Below are positions 59,790 through 63,906 of a stretch of 64,000 bases of DNA, piece after piece. The DNA is taken from contig NZ_AUBQ01000016.1 in assembly GCF_000429325.1 (NCBI RefSeq), positions 62,001 to 126,000 of the forward strand, written 5' to 3'. Made by a program: the position numbers and the translations under genes. How positions within the stretch are numbered: the stretch's first letter is position 1; each line of letters starts with the position of its first letter. The notes below the pieces were generated by a model, which ran no database searches, was not told where the DNA came from, and saw only the letters and a program-made list of their open reading frames with translations. The DNA is from Fundidesulfovibrio putealis DSM 16056 (GTDB taxonomy: Bacteria; Desulfobacterota; Desulfovibrionia; Desulfovibrionales; Desulfovibrionaceae).

Positions 59790-60869
59790 ATGGAACCGAG
59801 TGCGATGATCCCGGCGGCAGAGGCCATCCCCGCCGCGCCGTGGCTGTTTCGATGTCTTTTGGACCTGACGTTCTTCGTCCACATCCTCTTCATGAACACC
59901 ATGCTGGGGCTGACGCTCCTGGGGTTCGTCCGGTCGCTCAGATCTCCCCAGGCCACTCCGGCCCTGGGACAGCAGGCGGGCATGATCCCCAACCTCACCG
60001 CGCTCACCGTGAACATCGGCGTCGCGCCGCTGCTGTTCGTGCAGGTGCTCTACGGGCAGTTCCTGTACGTCAGCTCCACGCTCATGGGCGTGTACTGGTT
60101 CGGGGTGGTGCTGGCGGTGATGGGGGCCTACGGGCTGGCCTACCGCCAGAAGTACGCCCTGCACGCGGGGAACGAGCGCGGCACGCTGGTCTGGGGGGTG
60201 ATGAGCGTGCTCATGCTCTACGCAAGCCTTGTGCAGAGCCACAACGCCGTGCTGCTGGTGCGCCCGGACATGTGGGCCGGATATTTCAACAACCCTTCGG
60301 GCACTATGACGGCCTGGAGCGACGCGACGCTCCTGCCGCGCTGGCTGCACTTCGTCACCGCGTCCCTGGCCATCGGCGGCTTGGCCCTGGCCATGGTCGG
60401 GCGCAGGCGCACCCGCCACCACGACCCCCACGGCGAGGAACTCGTGGCCCAGGGGCTGGCCTGGTTCGGCTGGGCCACCCTGGCCCAGTTCCTGGGCGGC
60501 GTGTGGTGGCTGATGGCCTTGCCAAGGCCCGTGATGCTCGGGTTCATGGGGGGCGACCCCTTGGCCACCGGGCTTCTGCTGGCGGGAATCGCCGGGGCCG
60601 GAGCCGCTGCTGCGTTTGCCTTCATGAGGCGGCTCATGCCTGCGGCCGCCTGCGGCGTGGCCACCATCGCCGTGATGATCGCCATGCGCGGCGTGCTGAG
60701 GCAGTTCTACCTGGAGCCGTATTTCGATCCCGCGTCGCTTCCCGTGATACCGGAACCGAGCACCGTGGCCATGTTCTTCGGCTGCTTCGCCGTGAGCCTG
60801 GCAGTGGTCTGGTGGGCCGCGAAACACCCCGTCAAGGACGCGCCCGCCTCCGGCGTGAAGGGAGCCTGA
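59790..60869 (+). CDS. membrane subunit of a cytochrome bd-like complex (CydA-related)
   Basis: 359 residues with eight or nine membrane segments and no CXXCH. The first segment (LLDLTFFVHILFMNTMLGL, read as FFVHILFMNTM) places a His about where heme-ligating His lies in cytochrome bd subunit I, and LPRWLHFVTASLAIGGLA places another. It is poorly conserved compared with canonical CydA or CydB. GAGGACACCTG precedes the ATG. The stop is 3 bp before the next gene, so the two subunits are co-produced. A CydA-prime or CydB-like role in electron transfer is inferred. Confidence 0.72.
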   Translation: MEPSAMIPAAEAIPAAPWLFRCLLDLTFFVHILFMNTMLGLTLLGFVRSLRSPQATPALGQQAGMIPNLTALTVNIGVAPLLFVQVLYGQFLYVSSTLMGVYWFGVVLAVMGAYGLAYRQKYALHAGNERGTLVWGVMSVLMLYASLVQSHNAVLLVRPDMWAGYFNNPSGTMTAWSDATLLPRWLHFVTASLAIGGLALAMVGRRRTRHHDPHGEELVAQGLAWFGWATLAQFLGGVWWLMALPRPVMLGFMGGDPLATGLLLAGIAGAGAAAAFAFMRRLMPAAACGVATIAVMIAMRGVLRQFYLEPYFDPASLPVIPEPSTVAMFFGCFAVSLAVVWWAAKHPVKDAPASGVKGA

Positions 60870-60872
60870 TCC

Positions 60873-63383
60873 ATGGACTATCCCGTACTGCAATGGGGCT
60901 TCTGGGGCGGCGGCCTGCTGATCGCCCTGGTGGCCACCATCCACGTGTTCATCGCCCACTTCGCCGTGGGCGGCGGCATGTTCATCGCCGTCATGGAGAC
61001 CCGGGTGCAGCGCCTGGGCCTTGGGGTCATGAAGGATTACCTGCGCCGCTACGCCAAGTTCTTCCTGGTGTTCACCATGGTGGTTGGCGGGCTTACGGGC
61101 GTGGGCATCTGGTTCTCCATCTCCATCGGAGCACCGGGGGCCACGGCCACGCTGATACACTCCTTCGTACTGGGCTGGGCCACGGAGTGGACCTTCTTCC
61201 TGGCGGAGATCGTCACCCTCATCACCTACATGCGCTCCTTCGAGTCCGAGCGCTCCACGCGCCGCCTGATCCTGGCCTGGATGTACGCCGCCTTCGCCTG
61301 GGGCTCGCTGGCCATGGTGCAGGGATTCATCTCCTTCATGCTCACGCCTGGAGACTGGCTCACGACGCATCGCTTCTGGGACGGCTTCTTCAACCCGACG
61401 TTCTGGCCCGGCCTGGTGTTCCGCACGGCCATCGCGGCGCTGTTGGCCGGTGTGTTCGGCCTGATGACCGCCCAGCGCGTGGAGGACGAGAAGCACCGCA
61501 AGAGCCTGTCGCGCTTCTGCGCCCTGTGGGCCGTGCTGCCCATCCCGGTGCTGGTGGCGTCGGGCTGGTGGCACATCTCCGTTTTGTCGCCGGAGCAGCA
61601 GGCTTTGGCGCTGGGGCGCTCCCCCGAGGTGGCCGCCGGGATGCGCGTGTTCTGGTGGGTGGCTCCCACTGTGCTGGCCGGAGGCGTGCTGCTGGCCGGA
61701 GGACTGCCGCGAAAGGCCGCCCGCGCGGTGGCCGCGCTGACCCTGGCCGCGTCGTTTCTGTTCATCGGCTCCTTCGAGTACATGCGCGAGGCGGCCCGCA
61801 GGCCGTATCTCATCACCGGACACATCTACTCCAACGGCATCGCCGTTGCCGGGGCCGGGAAGCTGAACACGGCGGGCGTGCTGGCTTCGGCCAAGTGGAG
61901 CCGCAACAAGGCCGTCACCGCCGAAAACCGCCTGGACGCCGGGCGCGAACTGTTCTTCCTGCAATGTTCCAGTTGCCACAGCCAGGGCGGACCCATGCTG
62001 GACATCCTGCCGCGCTCGGCCAAGTACACGGCCTCGGGCATGGAGTCCCTGCTCACGGGGCTTGGCAAGATAGGCAAATACATGCCTCCGTTCTTCGGCA
62101 CGCCGGACGAGAAGAAGGCCCTGGCCGCCTACCTGACCGAGGGGCTTAACGGCGTAAAGCCCGCCCTGGCCCAGGGGCTCCCACAGACCGAGACCCCGGT
62201 CCCGGCTTTCGACGAGTCCGCGCCCTATCTGCTGACCGCCGTGGCCGACAAGGGCATCAACATGCTCTACGACAACGGCCAGTGGACCCTGAACATCGGA
62301 GCGCAGGCCATCACCGCGCACCTGCTGAAACGCGACGGCGTCCCGGCGCTTACCACCGAGGGAGTCACCCTGACCTACGCCGTGGAAGGCCAAGCCGCAG
62401 GCAGCTTCAAGGCTGTCGGGAACGCCTTCCGGGCCGAGGGCATAAACGTCTCGCCGTATCCGGCGCCAGATAAGGAGAATGTCAAGGGCAAGGACGGCTT
62501 CCAGCCGTATCCTCTGGCCGTGATCCAGGCCACGGACGCTTCCGGGAAGATTCTAGCCGAGACCACGCTGGTGCTGCCCGTGTCCTCGGAGCTCGGGTGC
62601 AAGAATTGCCACGGCGGAACCTGGACGCACGGCGTGGCGGGCATCGCTCCGGCAACGGCCAAGGACGTGCTCAAGGGGCACGACCGCCTGAGCCTGACGG
62701 ACCTCTCCAAGAAGGCCGGGCAGGTGGACTGCCGTTCCTGCCATGATGACTTCGCCACCGGGGGCAACCGCTCCCTGAACCTGTCTGCCTCGGTGCACGG
62801 ACTGCACGCGGTCTATCTGGCCGGACGCGGGGCCGACGCCTGCGACATGTGCCACCCAACTGACCCCAAGGGCGCGACCCGCGCCCTGCGCGATCCCCAC
62901 GCCGCCGCAGGCCTGGACTGCACCAACTGCCACGGTCCCCTGGAGGATCACGCCCTGGGGCTTTTGACCAGGGAGAAGGAACAGGGCGTGAAGGCCGCCG
63001 ATCCGCTCATCGCGCTGATAAAGCCCCGTGAATCCGACCCATCGCCGCGCGCGCCCTGGGTGAACCAGCCCAAGTGCGTCACCTGCCACGTGGGCTACAA
63101 GTCCCCTGAGCAGGCCCAGGCCTACGGAACCTGGACCAGCGGAGCCAAGGACCTGTTCAAGGCCAAGCGCGACGACCTGGACGCCATGACCTGCGCCAGC
63201 TGTCACGGCTCGGTCCATGCGCTCTATCCGGCCCGCAACCCCTACGGGAAGGACCGCGACAACCTCCAGCCCCTGCAATACCAGAAGCTGGCGCGCACCA
63301 TCGGCGGCGCGAAGAACTGCAAGGCCTGCCACACCATGGACATGGACGCGGCGGCGCACCACCCCGGCATGGGGGTGGAGTAG
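60873..63383 (+). CDS. cytochrome bd-like membrane subunit fused to an eight-heme c-type cytochrome domain
   Basis: 836 residues. About residues 10-310 contain eight membrane segments resembling CydA: ATIHVFIAHFAVGGGMFIAVME, read as HVFIAHFAVGGGMFIAVME, then GGLTGVGIWFSI, EWTFFLAEI and FEYMREAARRPYLIT, the last resembling the post-Q-loop signature. The canonical GRQPW is not present in that form. From about 365 eight CXXCH sites occur: CSSCH, CKNCH, CRSCH, CDMCH, CTNCH, CVTCH, CASCH, CKACH. The first lies in a class I cytochrome c-like domain (KYMPPFFGTPDEKKALAAYL, ligand Met). The c hemes must lie outside the cytoplasm. Likely an electron exchange between periplasmic cytochromes and a membrane heme core. 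GGAG precedes the ATG. Confidence 0.85.
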   Translation: MDYPVLQWGFWGGGLLIALVATIHVFIAHFAVGGGMFIAVMETRVQRLGLGVMKDYLRRYAKFFLVFTMVVGGLTGVGIWFSISIGAPGATATLIHSFVLGWATEWTFFLAEIVTLITYMRSFESERSTRRLILAWMYAAFAWGSLAMVQGFISFMLTPGDWLTTHRFWDGFFNPTFWPGLVFRTAIAALLAGVFGLMTAQRVEDEKHRKSLSRFCALWAVLPIPVLVASGWWHISVLSPEQQALALGRSPEVAAGMRVFWWVAPTVLAGGVLLAGGLPRKAARAVAALTLAASFLFIGSFEYMREAARRPYLITGHIYSNGIAVAGAGKLNTAGVLASAKWSRNKAVTAENRLDAGRELFFLQCSSCHSQGGPMLDILPRSAKYTASGMESLLTGLGKIGKYMPPFFGTPDEKKALAAYLTEGLNGVKPALAQGLPQTETPVPAFDESAPYLLTAVADKGINMLYDNGQWTLNIGAQAITAHLLKRDGVPALTTEGVTLTYAVEGQAAGSFKAVGNAFRAEGINVSPYPAPDKENVKGKDGFQPYPLAVIQATDASGKILAETTLVLPVSSELGCKNCHGGTWTHGVAGIAPATAKDVLKGHDRLSLTDLSKKAGQVDCRSCHDDFATGGNRSLNLSASVHGLHAVYLAGRGADACDMCHPTDPKGATRALRDPHAAAGLDCTNCHGPLEDHALGLLTREKEQGVKAADPLIALIKPRESDPSPRAPWVNQPKCVTCHVGYKSPEQAQAYGTWTSGAKDLFKAKRDDLDAMTCASCHGSVHALYPARNPYGKDRDNLQPLQYQKLARTIGGAKNCKACHTMDMDAAAHHPGMGVE

Positions 63384-63417
63384 GGGACTCCGTTCCGGCG
63401 CGGATACTCAATGCGGA

Positions 63418-63451
63418 CGGCCTGGGCGAACTTTTGCGCCCAGGCCGTTTT
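63418..63451 (+). terminator. intrinsic terminator of the cytochrome operon
   Basis: CGGCCTGGGCG pairs perfectly over 11 bases with 63437-63447, followed by TTTT. Confidence 0.9.
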
Positions 63452-63552: not shown

Positions 63553-63906
63553 ATGACGAAAAGCCTTTTTTGGCTGGGCGATGCCCTGCATATCCTCCGT
63601 GGGCTGCCGCCCCAGGTACGCATCGAGACAGGTGTTGCCCTTTTCGAGGTCCAGCAGGGCGGAAAACCTGATTGCGCCAAACCACTTAAGGGGCTCGGCA
63701 AGGGGATCACCGGCATTCATGAAATTGTCATGGACCACGACAAGGAAACGTACCGAAGTGTATACGTGGCCAAATTGAAGAAAGGCGTGTACGTGCTTCA
63801 CGTTTTTCACAAGAAGTCCAAACACGGCATCGGCATCCCTCGGGAGGATGTCGAGAAGATAGTCTCCCGGTATCGTCAGGCAGTAGAGAACGATAAGCCT
63901 GAGTGA
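63553..63906 (+). CDS. Gp49/HigB-like RelE-superfamily toxin
   Basis: 117 residues of the phage-derived Gp49-like (DUF891) family. The core IHEIVMDHDKETYRSVYVAK and GVYVLHVFHKKSKHGIGIP, read as TYRSVYVAKLKKGVYVLH and FHKKSKHGI, fits RelE-type mRNA interferases. GAGGAAG precedes the ATG. The antitoxin gene follows 8 bases later. Toxin-first order is typical of higBA. Confidence 0.9.
   Translation: MTKSLFWLGDALHILRGLPPQVRIETGVALFEVQQGGKPDCAKPLKGLGKGITGIHEIVMDHDKETYRSVYVAKLKKGVYVLHVFHKKSKHGIGIPREDVEKIVSRYRQAVENDKPE

Follow-up and report, generated by a model that had tools for sequence, protein, structure and literature searches.

How would electrons enter a cytochrome bd-type membrane core that is fused to a row of c-type hemes, and what would be reduced there? 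The question is raised by two adjacent genes in a window (the whole stretch of 64,000 nt that was analysed) on contig NZ_AUBQ01000016.1 of Fundidesulfovibrio putealis DSM 16056. The initial annotation, made from the letters of this DNA, described two co-transcribed membrane proteins, the second with a CydA-like helical core followed by eight CXXCH motifs. Both open reading frames were confirmed; they encode 359 and 836 amino acids, lie on the forward strand 3 bp apart and are called subunit 1 and subunit 2 here (Table 1). On balance we favour, with moderate confidence, that they encode the two subunits of a cytochrome bd relative that oxidizes cytochrome c, i.e., a cytochrome c:O2 oxidoreductase whose electrons come from multiheme cytochromes of the periplasm, tetraheme cytochromes c3 being the likeliest donors.

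The AlphaFold model of subunit 2 has a mean pLDDT (predicted local distance difference test) of 87.7, and its residues 12-324 match CydA chains with Z-scores up to 31.3 (root-mean-square deviation (rmsd) 3.0 Å, 312 aligned residues, 17% identity). Searches of the window proteins against Pfam and NCBIfam gave no CydA-type match for either core, PF01654 missing subunit 2 of the window, and the same family matches 47 of 49 aligned subunit 2 sequences. The CydA-like core of the annotation is borne out by the model match and by these relatives. The predicted CydA-type core and the aligned active-site heme ligands place subunit 2 in the cytochrome bd superfamily. An NrfD-like identity was considered and rejected: subunits of alternative complex III and of polysulfide reductase do match the two models, at Z 16-18, far less well than CydA with up to 27 and 31.

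In E. coli bd-II, His186 and Met393 bind heme b558, Glu445 binds heme b595 and His19 binds heme d (PMC8585947). Lys252 and Glu257 are the previously indicated quinol-site residues, whereas PMC13189123 itself assigns both to stabilisation of the Q-loop. The corresponding positions were read from a sequence alignment of 171 cores in E. coli CydA numbering, among them 123 fused cores (motif count seven or eight, some from cut loci, and with near duplicates and repeated records of one genome counted in) and, as controls, 14 canonical CydA and 15 classic monoheme cores. The active-site residues His19, Glu99, Glu107, Glu445 and Arg448 are matched in 123/123 fused cores, their equivalents in the window being His24, Glu105, Glu112, Glu306 and Arg309, respectively. 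His is found in none of the fused cores at the His186 column (Phe in 110, Leu in 13), and a single one has Met at Met393, where the others carry Leu, Ala, Val, Ile, Phe, Thr or Pro. The Lys252 column is a gap throughout the 123 sequences and the Glu257 column never holds Glu. All these ligand and quinol-loop residues are present in 14/14 canonical controls, and the classic monoheme cores share the pattern of the fused cores except for one Asp at Glu107. Instead, every fused core has an Arg directly behind the His186 position and a Glu in the Trp441 column, as have 15/15 classic monoheme cores. Glu302 was tried as the equivalent of Glu445 and rejected; by alignment it stands at Trp441, and Glu306 corresponds to Glu445. 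The reported replacement of the quinol-loop signature GRQPW by ARRPY is correct for the window, the Arg and Pro of the motif being kept in 123/123 fused cores. With invariant active-site ligands but neither the b558 ligands nor the quinol-loop region, the core of subunit 2 appears to keep the O2 chemistry without the quinol entry. Absence of the b/d heme ligands, which the initial annotation had named as fatal to its own proposal, was not found in this alignment, and the proposal holds in that respect.

The c-type part of subunit 2 carries eight CXXCH motifs, which begin at residues 365, 576, 620, 657, 683, 735, 774 and 816, as had been counted before; in 20,000 shuffles of the protein the mean number was 0.0086 and the maximum 1. 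The first motif lies within residues 353-421, matched by PF13442 just above its cut-off as a CBB3/class I-type domain, in which Met404, the likely distal ligand of heme 1, is invariant in 49/49 aligned sequences including the window, so that the class I-like fold with a Met ligand was rightly recognised. The structural match of this domain to SorU is weak (Z 6.8), and so are the Ig-like matches of the beta-sandwich spacer behind it (Z about 6-7). For the heptaheme domain the candidates for distal ligands are His603, 642, 645, 676, 693, 782 and 829/830. Five of them (603, 642, 645, 676, 782) are present in 49/49 aligned sequences, and His693, 829 and 830 in 47/49. In comparisons by sequence with solved structures cytochromes c3 match the c region best, though weakly (E 0.0045). 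The conserved His suffice for bis-His ligation of seven hemes and CXXCK was absent from the 49 aligned members; the heptaheme domain therefore looks like an electron-transfer wire, not a second active site. A catalytic octaheme domain of the nitrite or tetrathionate reductase kind was rejected, as NrfH/DmsE-like matches are far below the cut-off, CXXCK is missing and His are present in sufficient number. Two fused members, L122 and L127 (titled Halodesulfovibrio), have seven CXXCH instead of eight.

The model of subunit 1 (mean pLDDT 91.4) matches CydA chains with Z up to 27.0 (rmsd 3.6 over 327 aligned residues); CydB chains also match it in Foldseek, the CydA and CydB folds being alike. Since the profile of subunit 1 reaches the subunit 2 core at E 8e-10 versus 0.045 for CydB, subunit 1 is supported, by profile and model, as a second, diverged CydA-type subunit instead of a CydB, in agreement with the first description of the gene. 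Pfam matched none of 50 aligned subunit 1 sequences to any family. The conserved residues are His31, His187, Met296 and Arg300. The first three of these occur each in 98/98 rows whose locus has a fused core, in 22, 20 and 20 of the 22 rows labelled M1, and in all of the 15 remaining rows; the label M1 mixes 15 classic monoheme cores, 3 cut fused and 4 split forms with L168, which were separated in the ligand counts above. In the profile alignment His31 aligns with His24 of subunit 2. Read from the sequences, His187 stands eight residues past the Pro of the Asp-Pro motif of the family and E. coli His186 eight past Asn-Pro; the profile alignment is off by one residue here. Because this spacing mirrors that of E. 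coli His186, His187 together with Met296 suggests one predicted low-spin heme in subunit 1. The likely Glu445 position is variable (Gly301 in the window, register uncertain). A bolder version, which we regard as tentative, is that the three-heme centre of cytochrome bd has been split: subunit 2 would keep the high-spin pair, the low-spin heme would have moved to subunit 1 (His187, Met296) and the eight-heme wire would replace quinol. The result would be an oxidase of anaerobes that takes electrons straight from cytochrome c3 to O2 through a remodelled entry point.

The two genes also travel together. An order-level search of 199 genomes found subunit 2 in 140 and subunit 1 in 138; 138 genomes have both, 2 have subunit 2 only and none has subunit 1 only (the Fisher value for these counts ignores kinship), and some of the matches, in genus g3, are monoheme relatives (3/3 inspected). 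A pattern scan of 84,980 species genomes gave 428 stretches with relatives, from which the best 80 by full-length query match were taken, a choice favouring fused forms. All of these 80 are fused, 78 with eight motifs and 2 with seven, and their titles are mostly Desulfovibrionales, Desulfobacterales and Desulfobulbales. Among the same 80 loci subunit 1 lies within 65, always on the same strand, and in 61 within 20 bp or overlapping. Seven of the 15 loci lacking it start within 300 bases of a contig end. Of the remaining 8 unlinked loci, 6/6 that were searched genome-wide have one subunit 1 elsewhere (L052 and L083 were outside the search). Those six loci are L058, L062, L075, L077, L098 and L121; on the 8.03 Mb chromosome of Desulfonema magnum one gene is found near 0.76 Mb and the other near 5.77 Mb. 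From their co-occurrence we infer that the two subunits are partners, and they may form one complex. Four fused members, L050, L091, L102 and L111, are titled Verrucomicrobiota, CSSED10-310, Krumholzibacteriia and Spirochaetes, either by gene transfer or by mis-binned contigs.

In a phylum sample 112 of 395 genomes match at E 0.001, 72 of these at 5.4e-30 or better; the frames behind the weaker matches are mainly of canonical CydA size. Among thirty fetched loci, including the window, 18 are multiheme fusions with 7-8 motifs (several truncated at the end), 3 are forms with 2-3 motifs in total and 9 have one. The classic monoheme form consists of the core and one heme, and its partner gene then lies downstream. 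In four loci (L035, L043, L044, L159) a gene of its own, next to that of the core, encodes the multiheme part with 7-10 motifs; a separately produced c domain, which the initial annotation had listed as a finding against it, thus exists in these relatives and not in the window. A quick tree with support from the Shimodaira-Hasegawa-like approximate likelihood ratio test (SH-aLRT) only, and with long-branch warnings, recovers the eight-heme clade at 97 and joins it to ten monoheme cores at 88, other monoheme cores standing outside. The split and the 2-3-heme forms fall inside the eight-heme clade, which would suit later fission or loss, but long branches make this unsure. Among viral contigs there were 18 pattern matches, none of them a relative; four plasmid records match, none past residue 423, and the three fetched carry one heme motif each. 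In genus g3 (L156-L158) the monoheme form is flanked by a small diheme protein on one side and, on the other, by a partner subunit with two CXXCH of its own. Beside a three-heme form, L238:7933-9438 encodes a 501-aa protein with eight CXXCH that is octaheme-reductase-like by eye only.

How does this pair relate to described bd-type enzymes? Murali, Gennis and Hemp (2021) reportedly define OR-C by a bd-type core with active-site ligands, no quinol site and a heme c domain. As far as this definition goes, the eight-heme pair fits OR-C, since active-site ligands, a missing quinol site and fused heme c are all predicted for it. The fetched monoheme relatives, which we take to be OR-C, likewise have a CydA-like second subunit. 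What sets the eight-heme form apart from them is a fused extension after the one class I heme, made up of a beta domain and seven more hemes c, and the place of the subunit 1 gene, usually upstream in the eight-heme form and downstream in the monoheme relatives. Canonical CydAB (E. coli, L047, and the host's own copy, L001) shares the fold and the aligned b595 and heme d ligands; the eight-heme pair differs by the eight added hemes c and has none of the qOR features, namely the b558 ligands, the quinol loop with Lys252/Glu257 and a CydB partner.

OR-N and OR-C are named in print as bd-type reductases without a quinol site, the OR-C branch in PMC10839748, PMC13189123 and PMC11707229. The OR-N/CydAA' enzymes of Nitrospira and Nitrospinota are also described as pairing two CydA-type subunits and are thought to use cytochrome c (PMC10839748, PMC12342949, PMC6606698). 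Those authors place them in another branch, and by such descriptions they are set apart here; the CydAA'-like feature of two CydA-type partner subunits is found in the pair by sequence type, the pairing itself by co-occurrence. The CydAh of cable bacteria, the CydA homologue with a cytochrome c domain named in PMC13047784, likewise combines a CydA-type core with a periplasmic cytochrome c domain and is proposed as a route to O2 (PMC13047784, PMC10030654, PMC12093952, PMC11247825). A distant core-plus-one-heme CydA homologue was found in 13 consecutive genomes, in the family of Desulfogranum japonicum's genome; at the search sensitivity used, subunit 1 was found in 0/13 of them. Eight of these sequences (L222-L229, from G651, G652, G655, G656, G645, G653, G657 and G646) have one CXXCH in seven cases and two in one; all keep His19, Glu99, His186, Glu445 and Arg448 and have Leu at Glu107. 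They are the likely counterpart of CydAh, their hosts presumably being cable bacteria, and differ from the eight-heme pair by fewer CXXCH (1-2), no subunit 1, a kept His186 and the Leu at Glu107. Full-text literature searches, with supplements and Murali 2021 outside their coverage, showed no description of an eight-heme CydA fusion among the listings and passages covered. The kind of enzyme is thus already known from OR-C-like proteins and monoheme relatives, and the eight-heme version, common in Desulfobacterota, looks new.

In the favoured scheme periplasmic multiheme cytochromes, most likely tetraheme c3, would deliver electrons to the C-terminal heptaheme domain, which would pass them on to the class I heme c that adjoins the membrane core. 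Within the core the high-spin heme bound by Glu306 would receive them and hand them to the heme of His24, the presumed site of O2 binding and reduction. Subunit 1 would replace CydB and may hold its own low-spin heme. A core that has neither the quinol-loop region nor the b558 ligands would not take its electrons from quinol. The host genome has four matches to class III cytochrome c (PF02085), and for syntrophic sulfate reducers TpIc3 is described as a conserved cytochrome of the periplasm (PMC10553843).

The same complex, supplied with the same periplasmic electrons, may have the removal of NO, peroxide or another small oxidant as its real job instead of O2 respiration. Detoxifying roles are described for canonical bd oxidases (PMC10839748), the hosts are mostly sulfate reducers that often have canonical CydA too (PF01654 in 33/39 relatives, some matches being the subunit 2 family itself), and active-site ligands alone leave the substrate unfixed. 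We nevertheless consider this role unlikely, as the aligned residues serving O2 reduction are kept in every fused core and no neighbour gene occurs in more than 15/80 loci, that one being enolase. In their overall plan, known quinone:cytochrome c conduits are similar to a membrane core with a multiheme fusion, and on this ground the pair may also be read as a conduit between the menaquinone pool and periplasmic c cytochromes without O2 chemistry. A CydA homologue of cable bacteria has been suggested to pass electrons to the periplasm (PMC12093952). However, the subunit 2 core has lost the quinol-loop region and the b558 ligands and has kept the O2-site ligands, which makes such a conduit improbable; of the two options offered by the initial annotation, the ligand pattern favours the cytochrome c:O2 reductase. 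That the two-CydA core no longer turns over and acts as an electron sink or sensor is very improbable: the likely Glu445 position of subunit 1 does vary, but the active-site residues of subunit 2 would drift if turnover were lost and are kept across 123 sequences.

Several points weigh against the cytochrome c:O2 oxidoreductase that we prefer. Neither gene was found in 59/199 genomes of the order, and one of the 123 fused cores does have Met in the Met393 column. The one-heme member L168/L237, which lacks a multiheme gene over several kb around it, falls inside the eight-heme clade, so the eight-heme tail is not indispensable everywhere. Compared directly with CydA, the subunit 1 profile is not significant (E 0.07), the link running via subunit 2 and the fold. 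With helix limits drawn by hand, Lys and Arg number 12 in the inside loops of subunit 2 and 2 in outside segments one to four, yet 6 in the final one; the placement of the c region on the periplasmic side is therefore based chiefly on heme c biology and on homology. Cytochrome c3 as the donor is itself conjectural, and no conserved third gene points to donor or acceptor: none was found across the 80 loci, several of them cut short, the top true neighbour being enolase by plain synteny. Finally, the host genome also encodes a canonical CydA with adjacent CydB and two COX1-family genes, so the enzyme need not be the main oxidase.

Table 1. Features of the gene pair and its surroundings, in window positions
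Feature	Position	Strand	Assignment and basis
Subunit 1 (P0001), 359 aa	59790..60869	+	second, diverged CydA-type membrane subunit (predicted); model, profile comparison, residue counts
Subunit 2 (P0002), 836 aa	60873..63383	+	predicted CydA-type core fused to eight-heme c region
CydA-type core, residues 1-323, eight membrane helices	60873..61841	+	model match to CydA, ligand alignment
Class I monoheme cytochrome c domain, residues ~346-427	61908..62153	+	PF13442; Met404; weak SorU match
Beta-sandwich spacer domain, residues ~445-572	62205..62588	+	strands in model; weak Ig-like matches
Heptaheme domain, residues 573-836, seven CXXCH	62589..63380	+	motifs; PF14522 and PF14537
Intrinsic-terminator-like hairpin, 14 pairs	63415..63450	+	32 bp after subunit 2 stop

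The spacing of the genes and the hairpin behind them are as listed, and the co-transcription claimed for the pair is what they would suggest. The region has 3 terminator-like sites versus a shuffle mean of 2.5, and the weight of this hairpin therefore rests on its length and place. A sigma-70-type promoter pattern was not found at the locus, and PHROGs and PADLOC gave no match for it. Pantothenate kinase and enolase genes lie upstream and are transcribed in the opposite direction. Just downstream, at 63553-63906 on the + strand, a 117-aa protein of the Gp49 family (PF05973), to which HigB/RelE-like toxins belong, is encoded. The closest named relative is a metagenome-assembled genome titled Desulfovibrionaceae bacterium (L048), with 96% identity in the best subunit 2 segment. 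The genome of F. putealis is 4.7 Mb long and 99.99% complete.

O2 reduction by many sulfate reducers, a group long called strict anaerobes, is credited to CydAB and heme-copper oxidases (PMC11451228). A widespread extra oxidase candidate, with a partner subunit outside any Pfam family, would change the oxidase inventories of Desulfobacterota. Most cable bacteria are reported to have a CydA homologue but no complete bd oxidase (PMC10030654, PMC12093952; an exception is given in PMC11247825), and the eight-heme pair bears on this homologue. It would also be a natural test of bd chemistry with c hemes in the place of quinol and heme b558.

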